Assembly (NCBI RefSeq): GCF_020193655.1
Contig: NZ_JADYVE010000001.1
Span: 62,001-126,000 of the forward strand
Source of the DNA: Ensifer sp. IC3342
GTDB lineage: Bacteria; Pseudomonadota; Alphaproteobacteria; Rhizobiales; Rhizobiaceae
Direction: 5' to 3'
Length of the DNA: 64,000 bases
Positions 3,094 to 26,974 of this stretch are shown piece by piece (the first letter of the stretch is position 1; every line of letters starts with the position of its first letter). The translations under genes were made by a program, and so were the position numbers. Below the pieces are notes generated by a model. The model ran no database searches, was not told where the DNA came from, and saw only the letters and a list, made by a program, of their open reading frames with translations.

Positions 3094-3097
3094 AGCT

Positions 3098-4568: not shown

Positions 4569-6593
4569 ATGAAGTTTCTGATTTTGCGGATCCTGACTCA
4601 TAGCGAACTCGGCATGTTCCATGAGTACCGACGTCAGGGCAAAGAAGGCTCGAAGCAGCGTGCAATCAACTTCGATGGCTCGGTTGTAGACCGGGTTTTT
4701 CCCACAGCGCTGGATACAGACCGCATACCGCTGGAACTCCGGTACGACACGGATGACGGTATCGCTGTAAAGCAGCAATGGCTTACACGCCAAGCAAAGA
4801 ACTGGCGGTTCGAGGGCAATTGCCCAAGAGACAAAGTTTACGATTTTGTTGAGCCGGGATGCCTGTTCGCCATGGAGGTCGACGCGGGCGCCAAACCGGC
4901 TACAGGCGCTTGGGCTGTGTTCCCCGCGGACGATGAGGTGACGATCGGCGTTCTGTCGGATGGCGCTACCGCCGAATTAACACGGGCCGGGATGATCGCA
5001 CTGCATGGGGAAGAAGGCGTGCGCGTGCAGGGCCTACTCAATGACGCCAGACCTGAAATGTTCGGGCGAGACAGGGAAACGGTAGAAATCATGAACGACG
5101 GTGGAAGTGTCACGGGTCGGAAGCGGTTGCCGCCCCGCCCTAAGCGTTTGGCAGAGATCATTGGAAAGACAGGGCATAGTCTTCCGAGCGCAGTCGCAGA
5201 TCTCGTCGACAATTCAATCAGTGCCGACGCAACCGGGATTGACATTACTTTCGCCCCTCCGGACAGCGGGAACGGGCGTTGGCTAACGATCCGGGACAAC
5301 GGTGACGGTATGTCAGGGCCAGAACTCGATGAGGCAATGACCCTGGGGAGCGATGTCGAATATGAGTCCAATAGCCTCGGCAAGTTCGGCTTTGGCCTTA
5401 AAGGCGCGTCCTGGTCGCAAGCGCGCGTCTTTACAGTGGTGACTCGTCGACGTGGCGGTTCCCTCAGCCATCTCACCTGGAATATCGACAACCTTGGGGA
5501 CTGGGAGCCGAGCGACGCGCCTCTGGAAGAATGGGAACGCAATGCCACCGCCCTTGGAGAAAAGGGGACGGCCATTCTTTGGAAGGAAATGATGCCGCCC
5601 GCCGCGGCTCCGGTCGTGCCAGGGGTGTCCCCATATTCAGCCGAGGTGATGGAGCTTGAACGGCATCTGGGACTGGTCTTTCACCGATTCCTTGAGGGGG
5701 ATGCAAAGAACCGGAAAAAGGTGACAATCCGGATTAACGGTGTGGAAGTTCGACCGAATAACCCTGTTGGGCACCCACTGGTGGAGCCTTACGAGCTAAA
5801 GCCAATTCGAATGCCCACGAACTTGGGCGACGAAACCATTACGGTGCAGCCGTTTGTTCTTCCTTCGGAAGACCAGATAAAGCAGCACCACAAGGCTGAG
5901 GGACCTCAGGTCGTAAATGACGTGCTGGGGCGCGTAGGGCTTTTTGGCAAGCGCAATGAGTCGCAGGGTCTTTTCATTTATAGGAATGACCGCTTGATCA
6001 AGTGGGGAGGCTGGCACCAGATGTGGTCAACATCTGACGAAAAGACCAAGCTTGCCAGGGTGATCGTTTCGTTCGGCACAAAGCTTGATACCGCGTTCGA
6101 CATTAACATTACCAAGCGTTCAGTGAGCCTTCCGGCATTTGTTCAGGAAGAAATCAAGAAACTGGCCAACCCCGCCCGTAATGCGAGCAAGGCGAAATAT
6201 AAGAAGCCAGCATCGCCTCAGCCGGCAAGGCCTGTCGGAGCATCTGCTATTCCAACTATTGCTCCGGTGCAGAGGCTGCCGGCGAGTGGAATGCCTCTGG
6301 TAACCCAAAGCGGGACCATCTCCGCGCCGCCCACATCTCCTCCTCATCCGGCAGTGCCGGCGGCGCCGGTCGTCAACTACAAGCCCGTGACAACGGAGCG
6401 TTTCGCCTGGAAAGTGGCGCAGAATTTGACTGGCGGACGCGATTTGCAGGTAAGTAATCGTATGCCAGAGCTCGCGGCACTTGCGAAGCGTCTTGCCAAT
6501 GACCCCGATGCCACGGGGGAGCTCGTGGCGTTCCTGGCGGTGCTCGACGAGAAGGGGGTACAGGCACTCCTGCTAGATTCAAGCGAGCGCTGA
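4569..6593 (+). CDS. MORC/MutL-like GHKL ATPase of a restriction-type defence cassette
   Basis: The 674-residue protein has a GHKL (Hsp90/MutL-type) ATPase core at about 190-420: the N-box ADLVDNSIS (Asp214-Asn215), the nucleotide-lid DNGDGM (243-248) and GKFGFGLKGAS near 270. The first 180 residues (KQRAINFDG, KNWRFEG, then a LLNDARPEMF linker) look like a separate DNA-recognition or effector domain, possibly of the EcoRII-N/B3 type; this is tentative. The proline-rich 560-620 stretch is a linker to a small C-terminal domain. Such ATPases are known from bacterial operons with Z1 and nuclease genes and predicted to drive DNA looping or translocation. Its TGA overlaps the next gene's ATG. The ribosome site is weak; ATG 4569 was kept because THSELGMFHEYRRQG looks like the conserved beginning. 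Confidence 0.85.
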   Translation: MKFLILRILTHSELGMFHEYRRQGKEGSKQRAINFDGSVVDRVFPTALDTDRIPLELRYDTDDGIAVKQQWLTRQAKNWRFEGNCPRDKVYDFVEPGCLFAMEVDAGAKPATGAWAVFPADDEVTIGVLSDGATAELTRAGMIALHGEEGVRVQGLLNDARPEMFGRDRETVEIMNDGGSVTGRKRLPPRPKRLAEIIGKTGHSLPSAVADLVDNSISADATGIDITFAPPDSGNGRWLTIRDNGDGMSGPELDEAMTLGSDVEYESNSLGKFGFGLKGASWSQARVFTVVTRRRGGSLSHLTWNIDNLGDWEPSDAPLEEWERNATALGEKGTAILWKEMMPPAAAPVVPGVSPYSAEVMELERHLGLVFHRFLEGDAKNRKKVTIRINGVEVRPNNPVGHPLVEPYELKPIRMPTNLGDETITVQPFVLPSEDQIKQHHKAEGPQVVNDVLGRVGLFGKRNESQGLFIYRNDRLIKWGGWHQMWSTSDEKTKLARVIVSFGTKLDTAFDINITKRSVSLPAFVQEEIKKLANPARNASKAKYKKPASPQPARPVGASAIPTIAPVQRLPASGMPLVTQSGTISAPPTSPPHPAVPAAPVVNYKPVTTERFAWKVAQNLTGGRDLQVSNRMPELAALAKRLANDPDATGELVAFLAVLDEKGVQALLLDSSER

Positions 6594-8944: not shown

Positions 8945-9911
8945 GGAGCCAAATCGGGAGGCCTGGGCGGAGCTGAGGTCCGGACGTCCGATTTCGGATG
9001 ATGGGCTGGTAACGCGTGGCCTTCACTACCGTGACGAAGAGACGGCCATCCTCATGGGCATGGACGCTGAAGGCGATCTCCATCTGCTCGTCCCAGTCTC
9101 CGAGGGACCATCGTTCCAGGAGTTCCCGGACTTGAACGGCCTGATGGTTCGGCATCGTGTCACCAGTGAGGGACAGTTCCTTGGTCTGGTGGCGACAGCC
9201 CCTCATGAGCGTGTCTTCACTCCCGTATGTAGGGAGGTCGTAGAGGCCGTACTTGTTCAGAATCGTGAACCATGGACTGCCGTCGCTTCTATCATCAGGC
9301 AGTGGCAGTCGGCTTGGCGTCCAACACGCCAGTATATGAGTCAGACAACCCAGGTCGGCCTAGTCGGAGAGCTGCTTGTCCTTGCCAAAATTATGATCGA
9401 TGCGCTCGGGTCGCGCGCCGTGTTGATCTGGAGCGGGCCGGAGAGTGAGCGCCACGACTTTGTTTCAGGGAACCTTCATCTTGAGGTGAAAACCACCCGC
9501 GCCAGCCGGCATGAGCACGACATTTCTCGCCTGGATCAATTGTGGGTGCCGGACGGTCGTCGTCTTTTGCTGGCGTCAGTGCAACTTGAGGCGTCTGTCG
9601 GCGGGACGCTCACCCTTGCGTCCCTGATTGATGAGGTCATCGATTTAATCAGGGAAGACCCTGCCGCGGTCGACGACTTCCTGCTCAAACTCTCGCGTCT
9701 CAACTGGTCGGACGAAATGAGGAGGTCTGGGGAGCTCCTCCGCTTTCATCTCCGCGAGGCCGCGCTTTATGACGTTGATGATGAGTTTCCGCGTCTCAAC
9801 GAAGACTTCCGACCACCCTCTGGGGTCCTGGCGGTGCGCTATACGGTCAGCCTTGCAAATCTTCCGACATTGGGTGTGGACGAGGTAATCGAGATGGTTA
9901 GGGCGTCGTAG
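8937..9911 (+). CDS. PD-(D/E)XK nuclease (DUF4420 type) of the defence cassette
   Basis: The 324-residue product has a nuclease core with the metal-binding set RHDF (Asp174) and LHLEVKTT (Glu183, Lys185), preceded by the helix GLVGELLVLAKIM with the usual conserved glutamate. This agrees with the DUF4420 family of restriction-endonuclease-fold proteins that accompany Z1 genes. The N-terminal 120 residues hold a beta-rich region probably used for partner or DNA contact. It overlaps the Z1 gene by 8 bp and ends only 8 bp before the stop of the oppositely directed methyltransferase gene. It is the likely DNA-cutting subunit. Confidence 0.85.
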   Translation: MAEEPNREAWAELRSGRPISDDGLVTRGLHYRDEETAILMGMDAEGDLHLLVPVSEGPSFQEFPDLNGLMVRHRVTSEGQFLGLVATAPHERVFTPVCREVVEAVLVQNREPWTAVASIIRQWQSAWRPTRQYMSQTTQVGLVGELLVLAKIMIDALGSRAVLIWSGPESERHDFVSGNLHLEVKTTRASRHEHDISRLDQLWVPDGRRLLLASVQLEASVGGTLTLASLIDEVIDLIREDPAAVDDFLLKLSRLNWSDEMRRSGELLRFHLREAALYDVDDEFPRLNEDFRPPSGVLAVRYTVSLANLPTLGVDEVIEMVRAS

Positions 9912-9919
9912 GCGCTCGG

Positions 9920-11407
9920 TTAGCCCCGCCGTTGCAGTCGCTGCATTTCTGTTCGTGCGTTGGCCGCCGTCCTGAGGTCTTCATGGATCACCTCAGCCAG
10001 CGCAAATGACATCATGGGCGGCACAGCGTTCCCGATCTGGCGGAAAGCCGGGTTCATGGTTCCGCTGAAGGCGAACCCATCCGGGAAGGACTGGAGACGA
10101 GCCGCTTCACGAACTGAGATCGTCCGCGCCTGCGCAGCATCGTAGTGGATATGTGAGTAGGTATCCTTGCCAATATGAGCCATTAAGGTGCGGACCGGGA
10201 ACTCTGGCCTGAGCTTCCACCAGCGATTGGGGAACTTTGACACGTCATAAGGGGGGACAATGCTATTCCATAGCTCGTTGTATGCTTGCGTTCCCTGCTC
10301 TACGCCACGTTCTGACGCCAGTCGGTCAACGATCTTTGCTGCCGTTGCATGAGCCTCCGGATACTCTGCGCCGGGGCGCATTTCGGCGAAGGTGAGATGG
10401 TCTCGTGGTAGGTACCGGATTACATGGTCCCAGACGCCTTCGTCCGACGTGAAACCAGCCCAATTCCGCATCTTGATCGCGTACGGTGAAGGTTGCCTGT
10501 CGTTGCGGTAGGTGGAGATCTTGTCAAAACGCCGGGCGCCACGGGTTACCGAACGACCACCGATAGGGGCTAGGTCTCCGATCGCCTCCTCTGCAGAGAC
10601 CGGGGCAGCCATTCCATCATGACCAAGGTCCGGAGGAACGTAACCTGACGCTCCCTCGCGATCCACGTAGCGCAGAGCCACCGCGCGTGTGCCGGCGTAG
10701 CCCGTTGGGAGCTTGAGATGATTGGTTGCCTTAGGGAAGCGTATACCTAATCCCAGCTCGTGCCTGTAGGCGATCAGGTAGACACGGTCTCGCATCTGCG
10801 GCACGCCGTGAAACGCCGAGTTAATTAGCGAATATCGTGCGGTGTAGCCGAGGTCGTCGAGCGCCTCAACAATCTCCTCTGCCACATTGTGATGGCCGTA
10901 GTGAAGGATGTCGGGCACGTTCTCGATCAAAACGGCGAGAGGGCAGAATGCTCGGACGTAAGCCAGATAGCGTAGATAAAGGTTGCCTCGGGGGTCAACG
11001 CGGAACGCCTCGGGGTGATCTGCTACTTCGCGCAGCTTGGCGCGACCGACTCTGGCATAAGCTTGGCAGGGAGGGCCGCCGACAAGTACGTCGATAGCAC
11101 GTTCAACGTCACCCAGCTCGAGTTCCTCCGCCAGTGCTGCCGGGTCCATTCTCATATCCCGAGGCAGAGCGTGCGCCCTAAACTTGTCTGCTTCTAAATG
11201 CCCGTGAAAGTTCTTCGCGTGGGTGAGAGCCGCCAGGGGATCGATCTCAACGGCCCCCCTTATCTCGAAGCTCGCTCGATGAAATCCAAGACTGATGCCA
11301 CCGGCGCCTGCAAATAGATCGAGAACGCGTGCTGGCTCGCCCCGATGAAGTCTGTCCAGCTTATAGAGAAGGGGAGAAGCCTCGATGCCGGCTGCGGCCT
11401 TGTTCAT
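9920..11407 (-). CDS. dcm: DNA (cytosine-5) methyltransferase
   Basis: The 495-residue enzyme shows the C5-methyltransferase motifs in order: SAM-binding LDLFAGAGGISLGF (29-42), catalytic GGPPCQAYARVGR (Cys114), ENVPDI (162-167), and near the C-terminus RQIGNAVPP. The region between, about 250-400, should hold the target-recognition domain; the recognised site cannot be read from sequence. It should protect host DNA from the MORC-Z1-nuclease complex. It lies 57 bp downstream of vsr on the same strand and is convergent with the nuclease operon, an arrangement that allows modification and restriction to be expressed separately. The symbol is used in the general sense. Confidence 0.93.
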   Translation of the reverse strand: MNKAAAGIEASPLLYKLDRLHRGEPARVLDLFAGAGGISLGFHRASFEIRGAVEIDPLAALTHAKNFHGHLEADKFRAHALPRDMRMDPAALAEELELGDVERAIDVLVGGPPCQAYARVGRAKLREVADHPEAFRVDPRGNLYLRYLAYVRAFCPLAVLIENVPDILHYGHHNVAEEIVEALDDLGYTARYSLINSAFHGVPQMRDRVYLIAYRHELGLGIRFPKATNHLKLPTGYAGTRAVALRYVDREGASGYVPPDLGHDGMAAPVSAEEAIGDLAPIGGRSVTRGARRFDKISTYRNDRQPSPYAIKMRNWAGFTSDEGVWDHVIRYLPRDHLTFAEMRPGAEYPEAHATAAKIVDRLASERGVEQGTQAYNELWNSIVPPYDVSKFPNRWWKLRPEFPVRTLMAHIGKDTYSHIHYDAAQARTISVREAARLQSFPDGFAFSGTMNPAFRQIGNAVPPMMSFALAEVIHEDLRTAANARTEMQRLQRRG

Positions 11408-11464
11408 CTTGTCGTGTTATCCTCTTGCCTCGTGCACCGTGCGACTCGGCGAGCCATTCATATT

Positions 11465-11947
11465 TCAGTAGCACATCTGGGCCGTATGGGAGCCCGGCGG
11501 GCCCAAATGCTTGTGCAACACCTCAGCCAAAGCTTCCCTGTCCCCAACTTCGCATTCCCATACAACCAATGGCGACCATCCCAATTCTTTGAGCCTTGCC
11601 AGGGCTGCTAGATCTCTTTCCATGTTACGATCCAGCTTGGCTTCCCACCATTCCCTCCGGGTGCGGGGCAGTACGGAATTCCGGCAGCCATGGCGATGCC
11701 AAAAGCAGCCATGCACAAAAATTACCTTTCGACGGCCGGGAAAAACGATATCCGGGTGCCCGGGCAGGTCCTTGCGATGAAGTCGGAACCGATAGCCGAG
11801 CTGGTATAGTAGTTGGCGCACGATGTGTTCGGGTTTGGTGTCCCGCGATCGGATGGCGGACATGTTCCGGCGTCGGGATTCCGGCACATCCGCGAAATCC
11901 GGCGGCTTAAGTCTTTGCGATTTTTGCGATGGGGCTTGTGGGGACAT
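11465..11947 (-). CDS. vsr: Very-short-patch repair endonuclease Vsr
   Basis: The 160-residue protein nicks beside T:G mismatches that arise when 5-methylcytosine deaminates. The family signature is plain: NMSAIRSRDTKPE (29-40), LPGHPDIVF with the metal-binding Asp66, VHGCFWHRHGC (79-88) with the catalytic histidines, and the cysteine pair that builds the zinc site. It precedes the cytosine methyltransferase on the same strand, the usual pairing. The 28-residue N-terminal extension before the motif block is proline-rich and probably disordered. Confidence 0.95.
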   Translation of the reverse strand: MSPQAPSQKSQRLKPPDFADVPESRRRNMSAIRSRDTKPEHIVRQLLYQLGYRFRLHRKDLPGHPDIVFPGRRKVIFVHGCFWHRHGCRNSVLPRTRREWWEAKLDRNMERDLAALARLKELGWSPLVVWECEVGDREALAEVLHKHLGPPGSHTAQMCY

Positions 11948-12378: not shown

Positions 12379-13608
12379 GTGGAACTGCAATTGCTCGACA
12401 GGATTTCCGAGGGTGAGGCCGTATGTTTCCTCTGTAAGACATCGCTCGCTCAATACGTCGAAACTTTGCCAGCTAATTTTCGCGAATTTTATATTCAAAG
12501 AGGCATTGTAACGAACCGTTTCCTCGACAACCTTTGGGACACGCTTTCGAAGAAAAGACACATCCCTCCAATCGTGCTGGTGGCCGGGCCGACCTCCCCT
12601 GCGTACGACGTAGGCTCCGTCTTCAATCTCGGTTCGGACTTCAAGGTTCTTGACGGACTTCAACGAAGCCATCGTCTCAAGGAAATCTGGGACACGCTGA
12701 CCTACATCAACGATGAGTTCGTTGACCAGCCTGACGTTTCCGTCGCGCGATTGACGCGCCAACTCGCGCTGAAATTACGCGAAATCAATCTCAGCCCTCA
12801 GATATTTCAAAAGGTGTTGGAGGCGAAACGTAAAGGCATCGAGGCAGTGGAGCTCTTCGAGGGTAACACCATCTGGCTTGAGATTTGGTTCGGCTTGTCG
12901 GAAGCGCAGCAGATACAGAAAATGCTTGTACTAAACGCCGGGCATAAGTCGGTGAACATCAAGCACCAAATCGAGCTGATCTTCTGGAGTAATTTCGAAG
13001 TTCTTGCCAAGGAGCTGGCGCCGAGCACGATGGTTCGTGAGAAGGACAAGGCTTCCACCACCTACAGCAAGGGAAGAAAACCCGGAGAATTTCACTTCGC
13101 ACATCTCATTTCCGCTTTCGTTTCGCTCACCGAAGGCGAAACTGTAACAACAAACGCGGAATTCTCAGCGTCTCAATCGTTTAGCGGCGACAATGGCTCC
13201 GACGAGTCACTGCTCGATATCGACGACCGTTTGCTTTCGGCGTTCGCTGAGACACTTAGGCTCCTTGATGGCGCGCTGCGCAGCGAGTCGGGGATTCGAT
13301 GGCTTGGTCGCGAAGTGGTGCTGGTTGGAATCTTTGGCGCGATCGGCGCGATGGCCAAGAACCACCCTGGCACAAAAATCGAAACTCTATCGAATTTCAA
13401 CGCCCGCATCGAGCAGTACGCCGAGATCTTGAACCTCGAAGGTTTCGAGGAGTGGCGGAATACGCTTGACCTCTCGAAGGTGAACATCGGCAACGTGAAC
13501 AAGCGAGCTGTCTTCAATGCCACTTCGGCATTCCTGGAAGGCAAGATTTCTGGTCCGATCAAGTGGCGCAACGTGAACGTCAAGGATGAGCTCCATGACG
13601 CTTCGTGA
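12379..13608 (+). CDS. ParB/DGQHR-like protein, first gene of a two-gene unit
   Basis: The 409-residue protein has the motif FKVLDGLQRSHRLKEIW (Asp92 to Arg99 in DGLQRSHR), a variant of the DGQHR/DUF262-type motif of the ParB-like fold found in DndB, DUF262 and related nucleotide-handling or DNA-linked proteins. A second match is MLVLNAGHKSVNIKHQIEL (about 185-203), where DndB-type proteins carry an N-rich motif. The C-terminal 170 residues are helical and unrecognised. The start is a GTG; the frame is open back to a stop at 12328 without an ATG. The gene overlaps the HEPN-like gene by 14 bp, implying coupled translation. Role unknown; the context suggests sensing or regulation in a defence unit. 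Confidence 0.65.
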   Translation: MELQLLDRISEGEAVCFLCKTSLAQYVETLPANFREFYIQRGIVTNRFLDNLWDTLSKKRHIPPIVLVAGPTSPAYDVGSVFNLGSDFKVLDGLQRSHRLKEIWDTLTYINDEFVDQPDVSVARLTRQLALKLREINLSPQIFQKVLEAKRKGIEAVELFEGNTIWLEIWFGLSEAQQIQKMLVLNAGHKSVNIKHQIELIFWSNFEVLAKELAPSTMVREKDKASTTYSKGRKPGEFHFAHLISAFVSLTEGETVTTNAEFSASQSFSGDNGSDESLLDIDDRLLSAFAETLRLLDGALRSESGIRWLGREVVLVGIFGAIGAMAKNHPGTKIETLSNFNARIEQYAEILNLEGFEEWRNTLDLSKVNIGNVNKRAVFNATSAFLEGKISGPIKWRNVNVKDELHDAS

Positions 13609-14920
13609 GAAGATTCTTGAAATCGTTACGCAGGCCCTGACGGCCGACGAAACGATTCTTCCTCAGGACGAACTCGATAATATCACAGACATCATTCTTA
13701 GAGCTGATGAACTCTCTGCTATGGCCTCCGAGATTTTCGGGGACACGGGTCGCACCTTCATATCCGAGATTGTTTCACTCTTCGCGCGGCTACCTATCGC
13801 GGCGCCACTGAAGGACGTTTTCCCAAGGGCCACCAACGTCGTCGCGTTTCTTAATCTCGCTAACCAGCTCGATCCCGACGAGCTGGCCGAGGAAGTGCCC
13901 GCCGAACTGGGGACTTTGTTTGTTCGCGAGGCCGCTCTTGAGGCGTTCAGCAAGAGTGGCGATAGATTGAAGCTGTTTGTTTACGAGCACCCAACAAACT
14001 TCAACGAGTCGGTCGCTCTCTTGGATTTCAGTAGCGGCCTTGAAATCGCACCTAACTCGGCGAATTTTCCACACACAATGGCAGCATGTGTCGCCATCCA
14101 AGTAGGACTCGAAACAGTTGATCTCACAGGCAAGAGGTGGATTGTATCCTCGGTGGAAGACGAGCAGCGCCGCCTGTATTACTGCAAGTACCACGTCCTT
14201 CTCGCGGGGCACCTTCTGACGAACCCAGTGTTTGCTCCCTATACACTAGCGCTTCAAGGGATCGCGGAGACACTCCGAACCGCCGAGGAATACAACCAGT
14301 TTAGCGAGCCGTTTGAGATATTGGGAGAGATCAACAGCCGGACGACGGTTCTCGACACGCTACTCAGTTGCTACCACGTGCTCGAAAATTACATGATCCG
14401 CGCACAAATCGTTAAGGTTGTTGGGCGCAACAACGCATCCACGCTGTTTGGCATTCGAAATTTTAAGCAGATGGAAATTGCTGTTGAGAAGAAGGAGATG
14501 GCCCATCTGAGCCAACTAATCTCCGAATCCTGGCAGAAGCAGATTGGCATCCAAACGTTTCGCGATTATGTCCGCGATCGCTTCGACGCGCTGTTCCATG
14601 ATCCGGCCTTTGTGGCCGACGATTTTCACGATTTCATGGAAAAGCTGACTGTGAAACCGAGCGGCCAACGGCTCAACCTTGGCAATCTCAGCGAAGCCTG
14701 CGACCTCCTCCCAAAGTTGCTGTACCAAATTCGATGCTCAATCGTTCACAACAAAGAAACGGAGTTCCATCTCTCGAATCGAGAGTTGAACGTTGCCACG
14801 GTCCTGATGACCCTGGTCGATCTGTGTTTGCCAACCATGCAACGATTGGCGTTTGGTCTTCCGTCCGTACCGGCTCCGAACCCTTTGTTGTACGCGAGAC
14901 CGGCGCTGAGACTCTATTGA
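13595..14920 (+). CDS. HEPN-like protein with RX4H motif, second gene of the unit
   Basis: The 441-residue protein is unrecognised over most of its length. Near the C-terminus LLYQIRCSIVHNKETEFH contains an arginine and a histidine four residues apart (Arg380 and His385, RX4H) in a helical context, as in HEPN ribonucleases, where IRNxxVHN is usual; here asparagine after Arg is replaced by Cys. The rest is mainly helical. ATG 13595 was preferred over 13586 because AAGGA sits at the right distance. It overlaps the DGQHR-like gene by 14 bp. RNA cleavage upon infection is a reasonable guess by analogy with HEPN toxins, but the fold is proposed from one motif only. Confidence 0.6.
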   Translation: MTLREKILEIVTQALTADETILPQDELDNITDIILRADELSAMASEIFGDTGRTFISEIVSLFARLPIAAPLKDVFPRATNVVAFLNLANQLDPDELAEEVPAELGTLFVREAALEAFSKSGDRLKLFVYEHPTNFNESVALLDFSSGLEIAPNSANFPHTMAACVAIQVGLETVDLTGKRWIVSSVEDEQRRLYYCKYHVLLAGHLLTNPVFAPYTLALQGIAETLRTAEEYNQFSEPFEILGEINSRTTVLDTLLSCYHVLENYMIRAQIVKVVGRNNASTLFGIRNFKQMEIAVEKKEMAHLSQLISESWQKQIGIQTFRDYVRDRFDALFHDPAFVADDFHDFMEKLTVKPSGQRLNLGNLSEACDLLPKLLYQIRCSIVHNKETEFHLSNRELNVATVLMTLVDLCLPTMQRLAFGLPSVPAPNPLLYARPALRLY

Positions 14921-15278
14921 GGAAGGCAAATGGGAAACGTTGCATGCCCCCGCTACACCCTGAACGCCGCCCGATACCCTCGCATTAGAACCGATTGTTC
15001 ACAGCGCGTTTGGGAGCTTTAAACGTTCGCGCGCACCGTCTGCCGTCGGCCCCCGATCCGACCGGAAAAGATTTCCGCAGTGCGCCCCAAGTAGACGTCG
15101 CTCGCGCGGTCATCTGGTGAGATCAAGCACCGGATGCCACTATCGCCGTTCCGTCGGGGTGTGTCAGATGAAGTCGGTTGCGATGATAGTGGCGGAGTAG
15201 TTCTGGCGGGGGATGCTGAAGTCTCCGTCGGTAGTCGGCTTGGTCGTTGCCGTCGCTCAGGTTGACAAGTCACGCGGT
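14921..15278. other. Intergenic between convergent accessory genes
   Basis: This 358-bp gap separates the HEPN-like gene from the end of the giant gene on the other strand. I see no gene, tRNA or insertion-sequence remnant and no strong terminator hairpin. Open frames here are short and continue antisense into the giant gene. Confidence 0.5.
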
Positions 15279-18200
15279 TCAGCCGGTCGGGTCGAACCGC
15301 ATCCTGGTGGCACCCGCGCCGACCGTTCGGAAAAGTGCGCGGCCGGCTTCGGACATAGGATTCGGGAGCTCCATCACCCGCCAGCGGGTGGGATCGTCGA
15401 CGAAAGGGACGTAAAGTATCCTGTAGCGGCGGGAGCCGTCTGCGGCGCACTCGGCTGCGACCCGCATCTCGTTCTGCGTGAATTCGAATTCGAATGTCTC
15501 CTCGAGGCTAGCCTTGACTTCGTATCGCCACTCCACCTCCTTCGTGCGGACGCGGAAGTCGAAACCGAGGCCGTCGTCTCCGAACTCCCCGTCCCGAAGG
15601 GCGAGTTCCCTATTCCGCGAAACCCAGCAGGCGTCGTCAAAGCGAACGCCATGCTTGGCGGCAAGGAACCGGCCCGCGAGAAACTCACCGGCGAACCCCA
15701 TGGCTGCCTTGACGTCATCCGACATGCGCACCGCGCGCTTCCGGTGCCCACCACTCCCGCCGGGAGGTCCCGACGAGTTGGAGCCAGAAGGCATTTCCGC
15801 AAGCTTGAAACGCCGTCGCGACCTGCGTAGCCACTCCTCGTCCTCCATCGCCGCCTCCGCGATTTGGACCAACCGATCTGCGAAATCGCCAGCCGCAGTG
15901 TCCAGATCTTCGCCGGCGAAGGTGAAGGACCGGCGCTGCCTGGCAGTCGTCTCCTTTTGCTCCTCCTCCCTCTTCTTTTCTGCCTCCAGATCGTCGGACG
16001 TGAGCCCTAGCTCTGCCAGATCAAGCGAGGCGGGCATGCCTTGAGGCCAGAGGCCCGCGGCGGCCAAGAGCGGAAGCTCGCCGTCAGCTTTGATCTGTTC
16101 AAAATCGAGCACGCCTTTCTGCTCCAGCGCTTTGAGGACGGCCTGCACGCCGCTCGCCCAGACTTCGTCGACCGCCCCTTCCCCAACGAGCCAGGCGGCG
16201 ACGATTGGAGCCGCTCCGTCCAGGAAAGCACGCAGCGTCTTCACGTTCTTCGAGCGCACCGTTCCGAGCGGCTCTAAATCGATGTTTAGATCATCGCCGA
16301 CCACCTGATCAAACCGTTCATCGACGAGCCGCGCCACATCTTCGGGACTGACCTCCTCCTTCTCCAGGATCCACTCGGCTGGAAATTCCGCAAACTCGAG
16401 TGAGCGGAGGGCGACGTATCGATCGATCGGAAGTCCCTTTCTGTAGTCCCCGAGGAAACGGCGACGGAGCCGATCGATGGCGGCAGGGCGAAGATCGTCC
16501 TTCCACGTGTCGAACAAGCGCCTGAGTTCGGACTCGTTGCTCAACGGCTGCTGACCGAACGAAAGCAGGATACGGTTGAACCGGCCGAACTCCAAGTTCA
16601 GCCTCCGGCGCAGTTCGGCGAGATCTCGCACACCTACAACGAGGTCGACCAATTCGCCTGCGGACATTGGCAGAAGTTCGCCCATTCGCTCGAGCTCCGC
16701 GAGCGCACGGTGCCGAGTGACGCTTTCGCCCAACGCGGTCTCCAGAACCCGGCCGGTCTCCTCGTCCGCCAAGCACGCGACGATCGGCGGCAGTCTCCGA
16801 AGAAGCAGCTCGTGGTCAGCACTCTTTGACTCGAGCAACTCGCGGACGAGTTCCGGTCGGCAATCGAGAGCGCGCGCGAACGCCTCGTCTTCGGGCCGGA
16901 TGCGAGGATGACCACCGGCGGAGCGGACGGCGAGCAGCGGCAGAAGCCGCTGAAGCGAGCGCATGCGCCTGTCGAGGAGCGAAGCGAGATGCGGAGCCGC
17001 CTCCGCCAACGAGCTCCAATCCAATTCCGTCGTGCCGGCGACGACCAGGGTCGGCATACGTTCATCGGGATAGGCATAGAATCGAAGCGGCTCGGCGCCG
17101 TCCGCAGCCCCGACTCTGAGGGACAGGGTTTCGCAAAGCTTGAGGCGGATGCGCCGGAGCCGATCCTCGACGGCGGCCATGGAGATGGCACGCTCCAACT
17201 CCCTTCCGAGCACCTCGTTCGCAAGCAGAGTGGCGTCTGACAGCCACTCCAGTCCATCCGCCGCCAGGAGCGGGTCGCCGAGATTGGGAACGAAGGGCGC
17301 ACCGTCTACGTAGACGACAACCTCGCCGCCTTCGACCCGCGCTGCGTCGAACCCGCCCGAGGCGTTCAGCATCGCGAGCGCAGGATCGACGTCTTGGTCC
17401 CGCCCAAGCTCCAGCAAGGGAAAACTGGCCGCTATTACCGCACGGGCTTCCGGGCGCTGCGCGTCCGAGGCGACGAAGAGACGCGGAGGCGCCGCCCGGT
17501 TACCCACCATCACCTCCATGCCCGCACCCAGCCAGACCGCGAGGGGCAACGTCGGAGGAAGCACGGCGTTCGCCTCCACTGCGAGAGACCAGGCCCTCTC
17601 GTAGGTCTTGCGGAATGAAGCTCGGTCGCGAGACTCGACCATGCGGGATCCTTCGGCTAAGTCCGCCAACCGGCGCGCAGCCTCGGTGTCCGGCGCCCAA
17701 TCACGAAATCCGGTGTCGCCGCCGATCAGCAATTTGGTCAGGCGCTGATCGCCTTGGATCACGTCGGCGAGCCTATCGCGGGGCCGCCGGACGTACCTGG
17801 GGACGCGGGCGCCGGCGTTGCTCGTTGCCCAGAGCTTGTCTAGCGTTCCAAAGTCTTCGTCGCTGCCGTCCACCGGCACCCACCCGGCGGTGAGAACGAA
17901 CGAACCGGCAGGAGTGTGCGGCCGAACCTCGTTCCATTCGCCCTCCCAGCGATCATATCGGCCTAGTCGCCAGCGCAGCCAGTCTTGGCCCTCCTGCCTC
18001 AGCATGACGAGGATCAGGTCGGCCAGGCGCTCGCGCGCCTCCGGTGGCATCCGCTCGTGCTCCAACTGGCCGGGGAGGCGCCAAAGCTCGCCGCGTCGCT
18101 GGTACAGAGTCATCGGGTTCTTCAGTTTAACGGAGCGGTTCAGCTTCAACCAGCCGGCATCGCGCCCGACCTGCGGCACGGGCGTGTTGAGGAAGCTGGA

Positions 18201-20576
18201 CCACAGGTTCCAAGGCGTTCCTGACGCCGGCGCAGCGTCGTCGGCAATGAGAGGCAGGCCATCGCGAACGCCGACGGCCCTCAGGAAGGCGCTCCAATCC
18301 CGGCGTCCGGTGTCGGAACGCGGCGCCCATTCGGGTTCGTCGACCAGCAACGCGTCGGCTGCTCGGCGGCAGTCAGCCGACAAGGCAGCCACTTCGGCGA
18401 GGTAAGTCGTCAGCTTGCGACCGTCGGACGTCCAAGCACCCGAGAAGAAGGACGAGCTTGCCGCCCGCCAACCACCCCGCGTTTCGACATGAAGGTCGAT
18501 GCGCGACAGGACCTTTTCCGCCTTCACGCCCTCGGCACGCCACACGTTGAAGGCCCACTGGAGGGCGTCGGCGCGGCGACCGGGGGCCGGGTGATCGCCG
18601 AAGAGCTGCGGAAGGCCTTCAAGCAACTCAAGCGCGTCGTACCTTCGAACCAGACCCGCCTTGACAAAGTCAGCGACGACCTCCGGCTTGAGGGGTACGT
18701 TCTCGTCGAAGATCGCCAGCTTGCGCGCGAGGCTGGCGGGCGGCAACGGAGCGCGATTCCGATCCCGCCGGCGCGAAACACCATCCTGCCGGATGTAGAC
18801 TGCACGATCTGCGCCACCAGCCGTGGGCGGCGCATGCAGCTTGCCGTCTCGACCTTTCAGAAAAGGTTTTCCCTTCAGCTTCTGCAGGGTGTGCAAGCCG
18901 CCGAACGCACGGCGAATCTCCTCGTAGAAGGTGCCCCACGTCTTCGGAGACGCTTTCTCTTCGAGCAGTGCGGCCGCGATCAACTGCGTCCAATTCGCCA
19001 GCGTGTCTCCGCCCGGCTCGGCCACGGTTCCCGTAGCGCGAATGAGACTCGTCAGACGATCCAGGCGCGCTGGGCCCAAATCCGGATCAGCGAGGTTCTT
19101 AGCGCCCGCCTTGACGAGCCGCCTAGCGCGGAACAGACGATAACCGGACTCTTTCCAGAACCATGCCGCGGCAAGCGAGGTCCACCTCTCATCGTCCGCC
19201 GCCGGAATGCACGCGCATTTGGTCCAGTCTACGCCCAAGCTTCTCCACGCCGACGCCAGCCGCTTGGCGTCCGCCGCATCCCAAGCGGCAAGATCGAAGA
19301 GAGGCCCGCTCCCAAGCTTCGCTGAGAACGGCTTGAGTTCCGACGCCGCGACAACGGCAGTCTCGGCCAGCGCGTCGAGCAGGAACGCGTTGAGCGGCAA
19401 CTCGAAATTCGCGCGCCTCCGATCGATGCTGGCGTAGAACGGAGCGTCGACGTGCCCAGCGATTGGGGCGGGCATCTCCGCCGCCATGGGCAGGAAATTG
19501 TAGATGCGCCCAGGGCGGGCGTCCGGCCTGTCGAGGGCGACCGCCACTGCGACCTTCGGCTCGCCACGCCAGTCCCGCCATCGTGCCAGTTGGGGCTCCT
19601 GCGGGAGGCTGCGCTCCACTGCGGCGAGCAGCCTCTCCCGGTCAACGGTCTTCCTGGCCACGAGGTAGCGCTCGCCCGCCGGCTGGATATCGACGATCTC
19701 GTACTCGCTGCCGCTCTCCTCGTTCGGCTGAAGCCGCTCCTTGACCTCGCGGGACAAAACCTTGCGGTGAACCGCGCCCCCTTCCGCGATCTCGACCGTC
19801 ACCTCGCGGAGGCGGTCGAGGAAGAGCAGCAACGGAGCCTCGGCGCTGAGAAGTCCCAAGACCTGCTTTCGCGCAGTCGCCAGCGCCGCTTGGGTCGAGA
19901 TCGGAACATGGACCACGGTAGCGAAGCCTTCCTGAGCGAAGGCGGCGATGTCGGCCGGCTGATCTATAATGGGAACGGACAGGAGATAGCGGGGCAGCGT
20001 TCGGGCGACCTCCCGAGCTACGTCGGCACGGGCGATAGCCGAAACTTCGGAGAGGATTTCTTCCGGGCCGGCGAAACGGAAGCAGAAGCCGTCGAAAGCT
20101 TTGTTGAGCCGTGCTCGAGCCTGCGAATAGATCCGAGGGTCGTGCGTGAGCGTCTCTACGCTGCGGAAGCCGAGACCCTTGTTGCCGATCCCCTCGCCAA
20201 CCGTCTTGCTCGACACGCCGACGTTACGGATCGCCTTCACGTTATCCCAGTCAAAGCCCCTGCCGCCGTTGGCTACGTAGAGGTCACCGTCGGCTCCGCT
20301 TCTGATCACCAGCCGCAGGAGGATGCGCCCGTCATGGCCCTCCCGGTGCGCGTCGTGGGCGTTCTGGATCAACTCGAAGATGACGCGGTCGCCATACTCC
20401 CCGCCGATCACCTCGCTGAGGTTCCGAAGGCTCTCGTAAGTTCCCAGCCCCTTGGTCACCGCGTCGACGGCATTCTCGAGCTGATCCCGGACCGTTCGAC
20501 GCAATGCCGCTGCTGGCTCGTGGAGTTCGGTGGGGCCGTCCCGATCCGACGCGAGGTGACTTAGGTTGGGCGCCAA
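15279..20576 (-). CDS. Sacsin-like GHKL ATPase with C-terminal DUF3883/NO VEIN-type domain
   Basis: This giant protein has 1765 residues. The N-terminus is an Hsp90-type ATP-binding domain of the sacsin group: FELIQNAHDAH (Asn72), ANGGRGFDWDNVKAI (102-116) and GIGNKGLGFRSV (129-140). The C-terminus has GFAGEFLAGRF, then GFDFRV (Asp1673) and YEVKAS (Glu1686, Lys1688), matching the NO VEIN C-terminal/DUF3883 domain with its PD-(D/E)XK-like set. About 1400 residues between are unrecognised. No ATG is available; TTG 20576 is supported by an excellent AAGGAGG site 7 bp upstream. It is a single gene flanked by IS remnants. An ATP-switched nuclease for defence is inferred from the architecture. Confidence 0.8.
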   Translation of the reverse strand: MAPNLSHLASDRDGPTELHEPAAALRRTVRDQLENAVDAVTKGLGTYESLRNLSEVIGGEYGDRVIFELIQNAHDAHREGHDGRILLRLVIRSGADGDLYVANGGRGFDWDNVKAIRNVGVSSKTVGEGIGNKGLGFRSVETLTHDPRIYSQARARLNKAFDGFCFRFAGPEEILSEVSAIARADVAREVARTLPRYLLSVPIIDQPADIAAFAQEGFATVVHVPISTQAALATARKQVLGLLSAEAPLLLFLDRLREVTVEIAEGGAVHRKVLSREVKERLQPNEESGSEYEIVDIQPAGERYLVARKTVDRERLLAAVERSLPQEPQLARWRDWRGEPKVAVAVALDRPDARPGRIYNFLPMAAEMPAPIAGHVDAPFYASIDRRRANFELPLNAFLLDALAETAVVAASELKPFSAKLGSGPLFDLAAWDAADAKRLASAWRSLGVDWTKCACIPAADDERWTSLAAAWFWKESGYRLFRARRLVKAGAKNLADPDLGPARLDRLTSLIRATGTVAEPGGDTLANWTQLIAAALLEEKASPKTWGTFYEEIRRAFGGLHTLQKLKGKPFLKGRDGKLHAPPTAGGADRAVYIRQDGVSRRRDRNRAPLPPASLARKLAIFDENVPLKPEVVADFVKAGLVRRYDALELLEGLPQLFGDHPAPGRRADALQWAFNVWRAEGVKAEKVLSRIDLHVETRGGWRAASSSFFSGAWTSDGRKLTTYLAEVAALSADCRRAADALLVDEPEWAPRSDTGRRDWSAFLRAVGVRDGLPLIADDAAPASGTPWNLWSSFLNTPVPQVGRDAGWLKLNRSVKLKNPMTLYQRRGELWRLPGQLEHERMPPEARERLADLILVMLRQEGQDWLRWRLGRYDRWEGEWNEVRPHTPAGSFVLTAGWVPVDGSDEDFGTLDKLWATSNAGARVPRYVRRPRDRLADVIQGDQRLTKLLIGGDTGFRDWAPDTEAARRLADLAEGSRMVESRDRASFRKTYERAWSLAVEANAVLPPTLPLAVWLGAGMEVMVGNRAAPPRLFVASDAQRPEARAVIAASFPLLELGRDQDVDPALAMLNASGGFDAARVEGGEVVVYVDGAPFVPNLGDPLLAADGLEWLSDATLLANEVLGRELERAISMAAVEDRLRRIRLKLCETLSLRVGAADGAEPLRFYAYPDERMPTLVVAGTTELDWSSLAEAAPHLASLLDRRMRSLQRLLPLLAVRSAGGHPRIRPEDEAFARALDCRPELVRELLESKSADHELLLRRLPPIVACLADEETGRVLETALGESVTRHRALAELERMGELLPMSAGELVDLVVGVRDLAELRRRLNLEFGRFNRILLSFGQQPLSNESELRRLFDTWKDDLRPAAIDRLRRRFLGDYRKGLPIDRYVALRSLEFAEFPAEWILEKEEVSPEDVARLVDERFDQVVGDDLNIDLEPLGTVRSKNVKTLRAFLDGAAPIVAAWLVGEGAVDEVWASGVQAVLKALEQKGVLDFEQIKADGELPLLAAAGLWPQGMPASLDLAELGLTSDDLEAEKKREEEQKETTARQRRSFTFAGEDLDTAAGDFADRLVQIAEAAMEDEEWLRRSRRRFKLAEMPSGSNSSGPPGGSGGHRKRAVRMSDDVKAAMGFAGEFLAGRFLAAKHGVRFDDACWVSRNRELALRDGEFGDDGLGFDFRVRTKEVEWRYEVKASLEETFEFEFTQNEMRVAAECAADGSRRYRILYVPFVDDPTRWRVMELPNPMSEAGRALFRTVGAGATRMRFDPTG

Positions 20577-20739
20577 TGGCTCTCCTCCTTGGTTCGCGCA
20601 AAGGTCTCAAGCCCGGCTGAGGCGCAGAACGACAAGATAAACTGTTAAACGCGGCTGGCAATCCAGTAAACGAGCCGCATTGAACCGCACCGGTTTCCCG
20701 GAGACCGATTTGCCGGAGGCCTACGCCGTGATCGGCACG

Positions 20740-20835: not shown

Positions 20836-21283
20836 CGCAGGTGGATCACCACGGCCTTGAGACCTCCATGCTAACGAAATTGAGCGCATCCCGAGATAGG
20901 CATTTTGGATGTTGTAAGCGCTCGTTGTTGCGAACGGCAGCTTGTCACAAACCACGCTCAAAAGCTGCCGGTCGAGTTCCGTGAAGGGTTTCGGGCGCCG
21001 GGAGGCGTACGAAAGTCACCGAGGAAGGAACCCGCGGGCGGCAGGCGATGCGATAGCTATGGGGATTTCGGACTTCGGGCTGTTTCGTCGATGGCGCGAC
21101 CGTCGTCAGCAGGCGCCGGGATGAATCCGGCTAGGCGATTTTGTTGTGCCTTCGCGCGGTGTTGTTGGTTCGTCAGGCGGCCGGACGCGCAGCTTTTACT
21201 TTCGATCATCGGCGTGGACGCGTGGGTGCCGCTCGCCGGAGGCTGAGTGCCTGCGGCGGAAGGTCGGATCATGCCATGCCGGG

Positions 21284-22081
21284 TCATGAGGCAGTCTCCC
21301 GGTCCGGTGGGGTTTTGTTTGGCGGTCCACGCGGCTGCCTCCACCGTTCGAAGATCTCGACGATAATCATGCGTCCGCCGCAGCATGGGCATGGCGGACG
21401 GAAGGCGTCCGGTTCGTCCGGGGTATCGTCATCAGGTGGCGCGGCGACGTTCAGCAGTTCGCGAGCGAGCGCGAGGCTGGCCTTGCGGGCGGAGCCGGCG
21501 AGCAGCCCGTAGTGCCGAATGCGGTGGAAGCCATGCGGCAGAACATGGATGAGGAAGCGGCGGATGAACTCATCGGTTGCGAGCCTCATCACCTGCTGAC
21601 GGTCGGCGCTGCGGCGGCGGTAGTCCTTGTAGCGGAAGGTGATGCTGTCCTTGTCGAAGCGGATGAGGCGGCTGTTGGAGATCGCGACCCGATGGGTGTA
21701 GCGCGACAGGTAGGCAAGCACGGCCTGGGGCCCGGCGAAGGGCGCCTTGGCATAAACCACCCAGCGCTTCTTCCGGACGGGTGCCAAGTGCCGCTGGAAT
21801 GCCCGCCGGTCGATGAAGTGCGCCATCGATCCGAAAAAGGTAAGCCGACCGGTATCGTGCAGCGCGAGCAGCCGGGTAAGGAACAGCCGGCGGAACAGCT
21901 TGCCTAGTACCCGCACCGGGAGCAGGAAGGCCGGGCGCGACGATACCCATCGGCTTCCGTCTGGCGCGATGCCGCCACCCGGCACGATCATATGGACATG
22001 CGGATGGTGCGTCATCGCTGATCCCCATGTGTGGAGCACGGCGGTGATACCGATGCGCGCGCCGAGATGCTTTGGATCCGC
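21284..22081 (-). pseudogene. IS91-family (Y2) transposase, N-terminally truncated
   Basis: The readable part starts at ADPKHLGARIG and continues through THHPHVHMIVPGGGI (histidine-rich HUH-type motif), YLSRYTHRVAISNSRLI and a C-terminal zinc-finger-like CPCCGG. These are features of the IS91/IS801 rolling-circle transposases, which move by one-ended transposition. About the first third, with the usual zinc-binding N-terminus, is missing; the open frame running further upstream is chance continuation into an SRAP fragment on the other strand. The junction is near 22080. The element is dead. Confidence 0.85.
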
Positions 22082-22366
22082 CTTGCCGGAATATGGGAGA
22101 CGTGGCGTAATCCCGAGACTGACGAGGACATCCGCACCTTCTGCGTCATCACCTGCCCTCCGAACGAGATGATGGCCGCGATCCACGACCGCATGCCGGT
22201 CCTCCTGCACCCGCAAGACTATGAACGCTGGCTGTCGCCGGAGCCAGATCCCCACGACCTGATGACGCCGTTCAGGGCAGAGCTGATGACGATGTGGCCC
22301 ATTGACAGGAAGGTCAGTTCACCGAAGAACGATACGGCAGACATTCTCGATCCGGTCGAGCAATAA
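22082..22366 (+). pseudogene. SRAP/YedK-like protein, C-terminal fragment
   Basis: The frame reads LAGIWETWRNPETDEDIRTF, then CPPNEMMAAIHDRMPVLLHP and a natural-looking end ...SPKNDTADILDPVEQ. It is the second half of an SOS-response-associated peptidase (SRAP/HMCES/YedK), the enzyme that crosslinks to abasic sites in single-stranded DNA; IHDRMP holds the conserved histidine. The catalytic Cys2 end is missing, removed at the IS91 junction about 22080. A second, different SRAP remnant lies 0.7 kb downstream. Confidence 0.8.
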
Positions 22367-24762: not shown

Positions 24763-26625
24763 CTATGCGGCCTCATCTCTTTTCCCGCGATCAATCCTTA
24801 CAGATCGATGAACCACTGCGTGCTCAGCGAGAGCGATTACGCGATCCCGTCCGGCGCCAAGCATGTCGAGCACCCGCTCGTATTCAGTGTCAACAATCTC
24901 AAGGACTTCTTGCTCGAATCTCTCAGGCATCGACATTTCGCTCACGCGCTCGACCGTGTCCAGAAATATGGGAGTCTTGCCGAGACCGTAGGTGCCGACC
25001 ATCCGCCGCGCGAGAGCGGTGGCTCGTTCAACATCGCTTCCCATGACGCCCCCGGATCCGATCGACCGATCTCCGAACACCACGAACTCGGCGGCCATTC
25101 CGGCCAGCGCAACTGCGATGCGCGCACGGAGACTCGTTTCCGTGGGAAACCAGTCCTCGACAACTTCATATTCAGTCAGTCCCCCAGGGAAGGAGGATGC
25201 AGAAGCATTGAAGCTAACTTTAATCGAGATTGTTGCGCTCGACGCATATCCGACTGCAAGCGAGGCCAGCGCATGACCGGCTTCATGCACGGCTAGCCGA
25301 AGCATTTGCTCCGGCGTAAAGGGTCGCTTCTCCGGAAGCTGGTCTCGCAGATCGTGCAGCTCAAGATCCCGATCCTCGTCTCGTGCATTCTTGCGCGCGT
25401 CACGAACCAGCATTTCCAAGTCAGCGCCGGACGACCCGTCCAGATCCTCGGCGATCTCAAGCAAGGATTCGAAATCCAAGGTTCCTCCCGCGTGATAAGA
25501 CAGGATTTCCGCTCGAGTGATTTTATCGGGTAGCGCGAGAGAAAATCGGCGTTCCAACCTGCCGGCGCACAGGATGGCAGGATCGATCCAATCGGGGAGA
25601 TTGGTCGCTCCGATCACGATAACCCCTTCACCCAGACTCGTGAGAAGGCTGAGGAATTCATCGAGAACCACCTGCCAATCGCGGTCATTGTGGCGGCCCG
25701 TCGGCGAAGCCGGCCGTGTGCCTATGCTGTCCAATTCGTCGATGAACAGGACCGTTCCTCGCCCATCGTTGGCATCGTCGAAACTGCTTCTCATCGCTCT
25801 CAATGTATCGTCGAGACGCCCGGCCGATTGCCATTTGCCAACGGTGGTCTTTATCAGCCGCATTCGCAACGCATTGGCGAGCGCAGTTGCGAAAAGGGTC
25901 TTCTCGGTGCCGGGAGGGCAGACGATAACGGCTCCTCCGCCGACTTCCTTCCAGGGAAGTTTTCGGGCTCGCCATCGGGCCACATCGGCACGAATCCCTT
26001 TCGCCCAGGGCTTCACTTCCGCGTATCCTGGAAGTTCGAAGAGGTTGGGCTCGCCTGCGGCGGAGTGTTCGATATCGGCAAGCGCGGCTATATGGTGAAG
26101 GTCGAGAGACGGTTTGGTGATAGCCGCGATCATGAGGTTTTGCGGTCTGAGAGCGAGCGTTGCGGCCATTTCGTCCGAAATAGGAGACCGTCCGGAAAGA
26201 CGTCGAGCAGCCTGTATCTGTCTGGCGGACGGAGGCTCTACCGACAGCACATCCAGAGCCGCAAGACGTACGTCCGGCGGGACCTCGTTGATGTTCGTTG
26301 CGATCAGGACAGCCAAGCCGGCGAGATCAAAGACCGTAACTGAAGCTCCGGCCTTTTTGTCTTTTGCCGGAGGGCGGGCGAACCGCACTCTTATATGTTC
26401 GTCAAACCAGTCGTCGGGATTTGTGCCTGCGACGTGGCGGGCAGCAGCAAGATAGTCCTCCGCCCGGTAGCCGATCGGAGTCACGAAAACGACGAAACCG
26501 TCTTTCCCTAGCTTCAAAGGTCGTGAGGCCTTCTTCAAGGCCCTTCGCAACCCGCAAAACGCCAGAAAAACATTCGGCATTCGGAGCATCTTGGAGGCCC
26601 GCCGATCATGCGCTGTGACTTTCAT
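24763..26625 (-). CDS. Soluble FtsH-like AAA+ ATPase with M41 zinc-protease domain, altered P-loop
   Basis: The 620-residue protein joins an AAA+ module (about 195-390) to an M41 peptidase domain with HEAGH at 447-451 and a downstream SDVERAT segment carrying the expected third metal ligand. Walker B is clear (TVLFIDELDSIG). The P-loop reads CPPGTEKT at 236-243, where FtsH-type proteins have GPPGTGKT: both glycines are changed. There are no N-terminal membrane helices, unlike FtsH, so it should be cytosolic. It is preceded at one base by the DUF6634-like gene and divergent from an XRE regulator. It may be a specialised protease of the island; ATP use is doubtful without testing. Confidence 0.8.
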   Translation of the reverse strand: MKVTAHDRRASKMLRMPNVFLAFCGLRRALKKASRPLKLGKDGFVVFVTPIGYRAEDYLAAARHVAGTNPDDWFDEHIRVRFARPPAKDKKAGASVTVFDLAGLAVLIATNINEVPPDVRLAALDVLSVEPPSARQIQAARRLSGRSPISDEMAATLALRPQNLMIAAITKPSLDLHHIAALADIEHSAAGEPNLFELPGYAEVKPWAKGIRADVARWRARKLPWKEVGGGAVIVCPPGTEKTLFATALANALRMRLIKTTVGKWQSAGRLDDTLRAMRSSFDDANDGRGTVLFIDELDSIGTRPASPTGRHNDRDWQVVLDEFLSLLTSLGEGVIVIGATNLPDWIDPAILCAGRLERRFSLALPDKITRAEILSYHAGGTLDFESLLEIAEDLDGSSGADLEMLVRDARKNARDEDRDLELHDLRDQLPEKRPFTPEQMLRLAVHEAGHALASLAVGYASSATISIKVSFNASASSFPGGLTEYEVVEDWFPTETSLRARIAVALAGMAAEFVVFGDRSIGSGGVMGSDVERATALARRMVGTYGLGKTPIFLDTVERVSEMSMPERFEQEVLEIVDTEYERVLDMLGAGRDRVIALAEHAVVHRSVRIDRGKRDEAA

Positions 26626-26626
26626 C

Positions 26627-26974
26627 TCAGTTCCCCTCGTACCCGTGGGGCCGGCCAAGGCGGTACCAGCGGTTCATGGTCCGGGCGAGTCCGTGCTCTG
26701 GATCAAGGTAAAAGAGCTGGCTCGTGACGATCTCGCGCCCATCCTGCAGACGGGGGTGACCGTGCACTATCCCGCTAAGGGCGTGAGACCATCCGAGGAC
26801 AAGTTTGTAGGCGCTCAGAGTCGGCGCATCGGCAAGGATGGAGGACGTATCAAGTGTGCCGTCTTCAACTCGCTGGAGATCGTCGAATATTCGTCGTGCG
26901 ACGCCCGGATCATTGAATCGAAAAGTCAAAGGTCGAATCCTTTTGTGGTTGTCGTGCGGAGAGCTCTGTAGCAC
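26627..26974 (-). CDS. DUF6634-like small protein, coupled to the AAA+/M41 gene
   Basis: The 115-residue protein ends one base before the ATG of the AAA+/M41 gene, so the two form a coupled operon. Residues 55-110 (SAYKLVLGWSHALSGIVHGH, then REIVTSQLFYLDPE and MNRWYRLG) resemble small rhizobial proteins that I associate with DUF6634; the assignment is from memory of the motif. The start is a GTG with GGA seven bases upstream; no ATG is available in frame. It may be an adaptor or substrate-delivery partner for the protease, by position only. Confidence 0.6.
   Translation of the reverse strand: MLQSSPHDNHKRIRPLTFRFNDPGVARRIFDDLQRVEDGTLDTSSILADAPTLSAYKLVLGWSHALSGIVHGHPRLQDGREIVTSQLFYLDPEHGLARTMNRWYRLGRPHGYEGN

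Follow-up and report, generated by a model that had tools for sequence, protein, structure and literature searches.

The tmtA-like gene at 15279..20576, on the minus strand of the window (the whole 64,000-nucleotide stretch of Ensifer sp. IC3342 DNA that was analysed), encodes a 1765-residue protein that is, by its sequence, a putative member of the known Tiamat (TmtA) family of single-gene antiphage proteins, not a new kind of protein. We take TmtA to be the protein of the single-gene antiphage system Tiamat, first reported, it is said, by Millman et al. in 2022. Tiamat is not known to need an obligate partner gene. Sequence and predicted structure together establish an ATP switch at one end of the chain and a nuclease-type domain at the other, with the motif residues of both fully conserved. 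We consider it reasonably probable that this Tiamat-family protein is a clamp gated by ATP, which on sensing infection releases its DNA-cutting domain.

The gene and its family

The single open frame of the original prediction is confirmed. The stop-to-stop frame is 1775 residues long with no internal stops, and the TTG start at 20576 is preceded by a strong Shine-Dalgarno-like sequence, AAGGAGGAG, read from the sequence at 20582..20590 on the minus strand. An overlapping-frame artefact or a chance frame is excluded because 79 full-length homologues exist. The 7.42 Mb genome itself holds one match to the protein at E ≤ 0.001.

The comparison with PADLOC for which the original prediction had called gave a full-length match. 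That is, residues 16–1762 align end-to-end with positions 11–1779 of the 1782 in the TmtA model PDLC03971, with a score of 1522.9 bits. Five homologues that were scanned match this model along their length at 811–1841 bits. Seven further PADLOC TmtA models match the window's protein, their best stretch lying within residues 26–629 and one of them reaching only E 0.031; nine TmtA models were met in the scans. The family resemblance thus consists of the PDLC03971 match, the single-gene arrangement, and the sacsin-type ATPase, whereas no homologue in the tree shares more than 52% identity with the protein and the other TmtA models match only its first ~630 residues.

The N-terminal domain scores 70.1 bits with the NCBIfam model P_loop_sacsin, for which the cut-off is 50. 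In the Pfam scan, SACS (24.5 bits, E 2.8e-5, cut-off 32.8), HATPase_c, and NOV_C all matched under their own cut-offs, NOV_C falling short by 0.1 bit. Across the Pfam, NCBIfam, and PADLOC scans, the sole whole-length match is the phage-defence model TmtA, and matches to characterised proteins (sacsin, TRAP1) are confined to the ATP-binding part, so that no strong likeness to a characterised housekeeping protein emerged. A housekeeping Hsp90 was considered and rejected: the same scans gave no HtpG family match, and the C-terminus carries a nuclease-type domain. The defence-type reading of the original prediction is therefore supported, but the protein is less novel than was supposed, since it belongs to an existing defence family.

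The ATPase, the nuclease-type domain and the region between them

The Bergerat/GHKL ATP-binding domain, of sacsin type, occupies residues ~40–225 (19902..20459, minus strand, as for every feature of the protein below; boundaries approximate) according to Pfam, NCBIfam, a PDB sequence match, and the predicted structure. Conservation was counted in a set of 80 sequences, the window's protein plus 79 homologues, in which overall identity goes down to 22%; all 80/80 counts refer to this set. In the N-box, E68-L-I-Q-N72-A-H-D75 (20352..20375), the residues E68, Q71, N72, and D75 are identical in 80/80, an invariance that is partly selected, as the scan for relatives was seeded with [IF]EL[IV]QN[AG][HYN]D and F[DE]G[YF][CR]F[TR]F[AS]. 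The G1 box, N103-G-G-R-G-F108 (20253..20270), has N103 and G105 in 80/80 and F108 in 75/80. In the G2 box, G131-N-K-G-L-G-F137 (20166..20186), G131, K133, G134, G136, and F137 are all invariant (80/80). In the S-x-K lid, K124 is found in 80/80 and S122 in 71/80. The transducer domain follows at residues ~226–420 (19317..19901, boundaries approximate, from the predicted structure). It contains R386 (19419..19421), again identical in 80/80, a candidate γ-phosphate sensor that may correspond to R380 of Hsp90 and R474 of sacsin.

In the available text of PMC9880540, the signature of the sacsin ATP site is Asn for Hsp90 Asp79, Phe for Met84, and an S-x-K lid. By its sequence, the site described here carries this signature, with Asn replacing the Hsp90 Asp in the G1 box as it does in sacsin, F108 in place of Met84, and the S-x-K. 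The closest PDB relative by sequence is sacsin SR1 (E 4.8e-9 to 2.9e-8). The AlphaFold model of residues 1–1200 (42 sequences, mean pLDDT 87.6, pTM 0.55) has a GHKL-plus-transducer module at residues ~40–420. In VIA-align, where rows no more than 1 Z unit apart count as tied, this model matches TRAP1 (4z1i, Z 15.5, 5.4 Å, 292 residues), Topo VI-B (9o0g, Z 15.2), MutL (1nhh, Z 14.2), and sacsin SR1 (5v44, Z 14.2, 3.2 Å, 186 residues); the top PDB match in Foldseek is human MORC2 (E 2.9e-5). The N-terminus is thus a GHKL ATPase with a transducer, for which ATP binding and hydrolysis are predicted from sequence and model. The sacsin/Hsp90-type ATPase that was originally proposed is upheld; the P-loop-like ATP site proposed with it is not, the site being of the Bergerat/GHKL type.

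The C-terminal NOV_C/DUF3883 domain was placed at residues 1619–1765 (15282..15722) by Pfam and the predicted structure. In Pfam, where the cut-off is 22.1 bits, the window copy scores 22.0 (E 1.8e-4); among five homologues scanned, three are above the cut-off and two have no match at E 0.01. Ten residues are identical in 80/80: E1631 (15684..15686), W1651, S1653, G1671, D1673 (15558..15560), E1686, V1687, and K1688 (E1686-V-K1688, 15513..15521), N1739, and P1740. None of these invariant C-terminal residues served as a search seed. The AlphaFold model of residues 1181–1765 (41 sequences, mean pLDDT 90.9, pTM 0.64) ends, at residues 1619–1765, in an α-β-β-β-α-β core, i.e., in model numbering, helix 440–465, strands 494–497, 502–509, and 516–518, helix 521–532, and strand 536–543. 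VIA-align aligns it with the SPARDA nuclease (9qcc, Z 8.8, 4.1 Å, 113 residues) and with Hjc (2wcw and 1gef, Z 8.1), and lower down with RecU, SwaI, HincII, and EcoRV. Models without a clear match typically peak at Z 7 to 8 with this tool, so that Z 8.1–8.8 is only slightly higher and modest; the assignment gains support because nearly all of the listed rows are, we assume, PD-(D/E)XK nucleases. Foldseek matches also belong to the PD-(D/E)XK class, although they are weak, the best having E 0.096 and none falling under 0.001. Profile A3 searched against PDB sequences gave only weak, unrelated-looking matches in the C-terminal third (best E 0.071), and the nuclease fold therefore rests on structure comparison plus the motif. 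DUF3883 is named as a novel REase domain in the accessible part of PMC3710099. Sequence and predicted structure thus assign residues 1619–1765 to a PD-(D/E)XK-type domain that has kept its motif residues, and nuclease activity is predicted. The originally proposed NO VEIN/DUF3883 domain with Asp-Glu-x-Lys residues is borne out by both the invariant residues and the predicted fold, the model having PD-(D/E)XK topology and its structural neighbours being Hjc, RecU, HincII, EcoRV, and SPARDA nucleases, at modest scores.

Between these ends, residues ~420–1600 are predicted by the AlphaFold models to be folded, as alpha/beta plus helical structure. The middle region contains one internal duplication, seen by profile comparison: unit A at residues 450–604 (18765..19229) and unit B at residues 893–1044 (17445..17900). 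Aligned with hhalign, the two units gave E 2.2e-4 with long segments, 2.2e-5 once these were shortened (145 columns in both cases), and E 9e-6 over 143 columns with the shortest, these E-values being for single comparisons of segments picked after a first scan. Two reversed controls gave E 0.41 and 0.16; among four other pairs of segments, the best reached E 0.079. A full-profile self-alignment of the protein returned the trivial match only. The VIA-align rows cover residues 40–514 of the N-terminal model and 400–585 of the C-terminal model. A new fold is not claimed for the middle because structure comparison barely probes residues ~515–1200 and the helical 1181–1580. The original prediction counted about 1400 unrecognised residues here. 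This figure shrinks, as the PADLOC model spans the whole protein and residues ~220–420 are the GHKL transducer.

Distribution, neighbours and the wider family

Relatives were found in 17 records of the plasmid collection, 3 of which cover at least 80% of the protein, and in 1 of the phage collection. Among 297 genomes from the same order, 4 had hits to PDLC03971, as did 3 among 398 from the phylum; the two draws overlap, and each count includes the window's own genome; the hits in G156, G591, and G355 involve the N-terminal part only. A query of genome contigs with the single protein found no relative. The same kind of scan with alignment A1 yielded 145 relatives, of which 80 loci were kept, and a scan of viral contigs yielded 5. 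Relatives of tmtA lie on viral-classed contigs at L016, L097, L098, L099, L100, and L101 (MT835712 and five from IMG/VR).

A matching frame is present in 98 of 101 loci, two of the 98 being the window gene itself; L005–L007 gave no phmmer match. The window's protein and 81 homologues reach 1700 residues, and removal of the near-identical L037 and L070 left 80 sequences. Fifteen short or split frames were dropped (L014, L024, L034, L043, L044, L045, L076, L080, L082, L084, L086, L090, L091, L096, and L101). Contig ends truncate some of these, and others have the look of split, possibly decayed, genes. In the tree (FastTree, midpoint root, several long branches flagged), Acidobacteriota and Chloroflexota rows stand among Pseudomonadota, Actinomycetota rows are scattered over several positions, and two copies come from Rhizobium anhuiense. 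The window's protein falls in a fully supported clade of 8 rows, the other members of which are alphaproteobacteria by title; its closest homologue, L017, is 52% identical. The patchy distribution in these sequences is as expected for a mobile defence gene.

About 400 bp upstream of tmtA lies an IS91-family stretch (20980..22082, minus strand, start approximate) that holds most of the Y2_Tnp ORF at 21284–22255 and shares 97.0% identity with a copy on a plasmid of Sinorhizobium meliloti. Other genes lie beyond it. The 354 bases downstream of tmtA (14925–15278) have no match in the plasmid collection and occur once in the gene's own genome, and a DzbB-like gene adjoins them directly. The gene had been described as bracketed by IS remnants; that holds for the upstream side, but the plasmid collection and the gene's own genome gave none for the downstream segment.

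Directly downstream of tmtA, and convergent with it, is a DzbA-/DzbB-like pair (12379–14920, plus strand; PADLOC 113.6 and 41.6 bits), presumably Dazbog. MzaB-, MzaC-, and MzaD-like genes occupy 4569–9911 on the plus strand (PADLOC 125.7, 302.5, and 41.6 bits, below the NCBIfam equivalog cut-offs), which makes this segment, by sequence comparison, a divergent MZA-type cassette. Genes for a C5 methyltransferase and a Vsr endonuclease (9920–11947) are convergent with the Mza-like genes. Farther out, an FtsH-like AAA plus M41 peptidase gene (631 aa, TTG start) lies at 24763–26658 on the minus strand, and two ORFs (415 and 395 aa), neither of which matches Pfam at E 0.01, lie at 1846–4243 on the plus strand, in the window's lowest G+C stretch (0.489 at 2001–4000).

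Around the homologues, the commonest neighbour family (BLASTP clusters, E 1e-8, 50% coverage) occurs at 12 of 95 loci, two of the 12 being near-identical. It is an SF1 helicase with an RNase_H_2 domain, as seen in three members scanned. The helicase gene sits close upstream of tmtA at L008, L025, L026, L033, L037, L047, L089, and others; at L008 the helicase is named a TM0106 family RecB-like nuclease, and a small DUF4357 gene lies between it and tmtA. The helicase protein is possibly an optional partner. Since only 12 of 95 loci have it, a fixed pairing of tmtA with this TM0106-like helicase-nuclease as a two-gene system is rejected. Ten chosen adjacent ORFs were scanned: one is BrxL and one PglX (BREX), three match MkoA/MkoC models (Mokosh, we presume) in part, and five have no PADLOC match at E 1e-10. 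Thus, with BREX- and Mokosh-type neighbours and no family above 12 of 95, tmtA is often found among defence genes with no obligate partner seen.

A survey for sacsin-like domains in 289 genomes of the class gave matches in 17, above the cut-off in 9. The weaker matches are mostly frames of 620–790 aa and are probably HtpG; three control genomes likewise match below the cut-off. We examined 13 stretches, 10 from the survey and 3 weak TmtA hits, and scanned 8 proteins; outside these 8 are L124 (cut by a contig end), L129 (split), L130 (lacking the ATPase motif), and L127 and L128, which were only read. All 8 match TmtA models in part. NOV_C is present in four of them, L122, L123, L131, and L132, the last being below the cut-off as a whole protein and above it as a tail; L128 also has NOV_C, by its tail. 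In L121, L126, and L133 (~1030 aa, with sacsin-type ATPases), the last block is instead a cysteine-rich C-x2-C ... LALCP segment. This pattern, in three sequences, looks weakly HNH-like, the label being weak because L126 lacks the HH and last His that are present in L121 and L133. L125 has no recognised tail, and a Pfam search of the C-terminal tails of L121, L126, L133, and L125 gave nothing up to E 5. Within this small sample, the sequences suggest that the last block of the protein may be exchangeable between members.

Proposed mechanism and its biological meaning

In the mechanism that we favor, the ATPase would dimerise on ATP and shut as a clamp, as do MutL, MORC, and Hsp90, and the middle region would bind an infection signal or phage DNA. 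Clamp closure or ATP hydrolysis would then bring the paired C-terminal nuclease domains onto DNA for cleavage. Phage DNA would be degraded or, if cutting is unselective, the infected cell killed. A close functional parallel is VcSduA of Shedu, described in the available text of PMC12137116 as a phage-defence GHKL ATPase fused, in one protein, to a C-terminal PD-(D/E)XK nuclease, with a clamp-like middle domain; its authors propose that the ATPase controls the nuclease. The VcSduA nuclease is DUF4263 there, whereas the protein described here has NOV_C, and DUF4263 was not found in it by the Pfam and PADLOC scans.

A possible, though less probable, reading that overlaps the clamp as a special case is abortive infection: the clamp would sense a phage protein or protein-folding stress, in the manner of client binding by sacsin and Hsp90, and an unselective DNase would kill the cell. 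The SPARDA nuclease, an unselective DNase, is the best structural match of the nuclease domain, and the ATP site is of the sacsin type in its Asn for Asp and its S-x-K. However, the DNA-acting MORC2, MutL, and Topo VI-B are about as good matches to the N-terminal model as Hsp90 is. We regard as rather unlikely a type IV-like restriction enzyme whose middle region directly recognises modified or branched phage DNA. The nuclease does align with the Hjc and RecU junction resolvases and with HincII, SwaI, and EcoRV, and DUF3883 occurs in restriction operons according to the accessible part of PMC3710099, but the Pfam scan at E 1 gave no modification-reader domain and no neighbour family, methyltransferase or other, exceeds 12 of 95 loci. 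That the C-terminal fold serves as a binding module without catalysis, as the 0.1-bit Pfam shortfall and the two unmatched homologues could suggest, is most improbable given E, D, E, and K motif residues identical in 80/80 while overall identity drops to 22%.

The original prediction likened the protein to the MORC-plus-nuclease cassette at 4.6–9.9 kb of the window, and this is apt: the cassette scores as MzaB (GHKL), MzaC (Z1), and MzaD (PD-(D/E)XK), and MORC2 is the top Foldseek match of the N-terminal model. Both pair a GHKL ATPase with a PD-(D/E)XK nuclease, but MZA uses separate proteins plus the Z1 protein, and its GHKL is of the HATPase_c_3 (MutL/MORC-like) type. With the Hsp90-like SR1 of human sacsin, which is associated with a brain disease, the protein shares the Asn for Asp79, the Phe for Met84, the S-x-K lid, and the candidate catalytic Arg. 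Sacsin has three Hsp90-like modules and DnaJ and HEPN domains, as given in the available sections of PMC3710099. In contrast, the protein described here has a single SACS/HATPase stretch and a nuclease-type C-terminus, with DnaJ and HEPN absent in the Pfam scan at E 1.

The NOV_C C-terminus is held in common with plant NO VEIN, a eukaryotic developmental protein that gave Pfam NOV_C its name. In a tentative and rather doubtful wider picture, sacsin-type ATPases would serve bacteria as an immune switch whose C-terminal nucleases are exchangeable (NOV_C in the TmtA branch of the window and in other branches, an HNH-like zinc module elsewhere), plant NO VEIN and animal sacsin would descend from these immune proteins, and Tiamat would work as a clamp nuclease gated by ATP.

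The residue anatomy suggests an explanation for a published observation. In the part of PMC12409356 that is available, 'Tiamat' hits in plant metagenomes are 100% on plant sequences, and plant sequences score as Tiamat in PADLOC. Such plant-genome hits are perhaps NO VEIN genes of the plants themselves, in which case they would be a false call by the defence-finding tool. The accessible portions of PMC10482375 and a table in PMC12926258 count Tiamat itself among the systems of unknown mechanism, and no mechanistic study of it appeared among the papers listed in the literature searched, which lacked most subscription papers and bioRxiv. The anatomy described here makes the Tiamat mechanism testable at named residues, namely the two sets that are identical in 80/80, one in the ATP switch and one in the nuclease.
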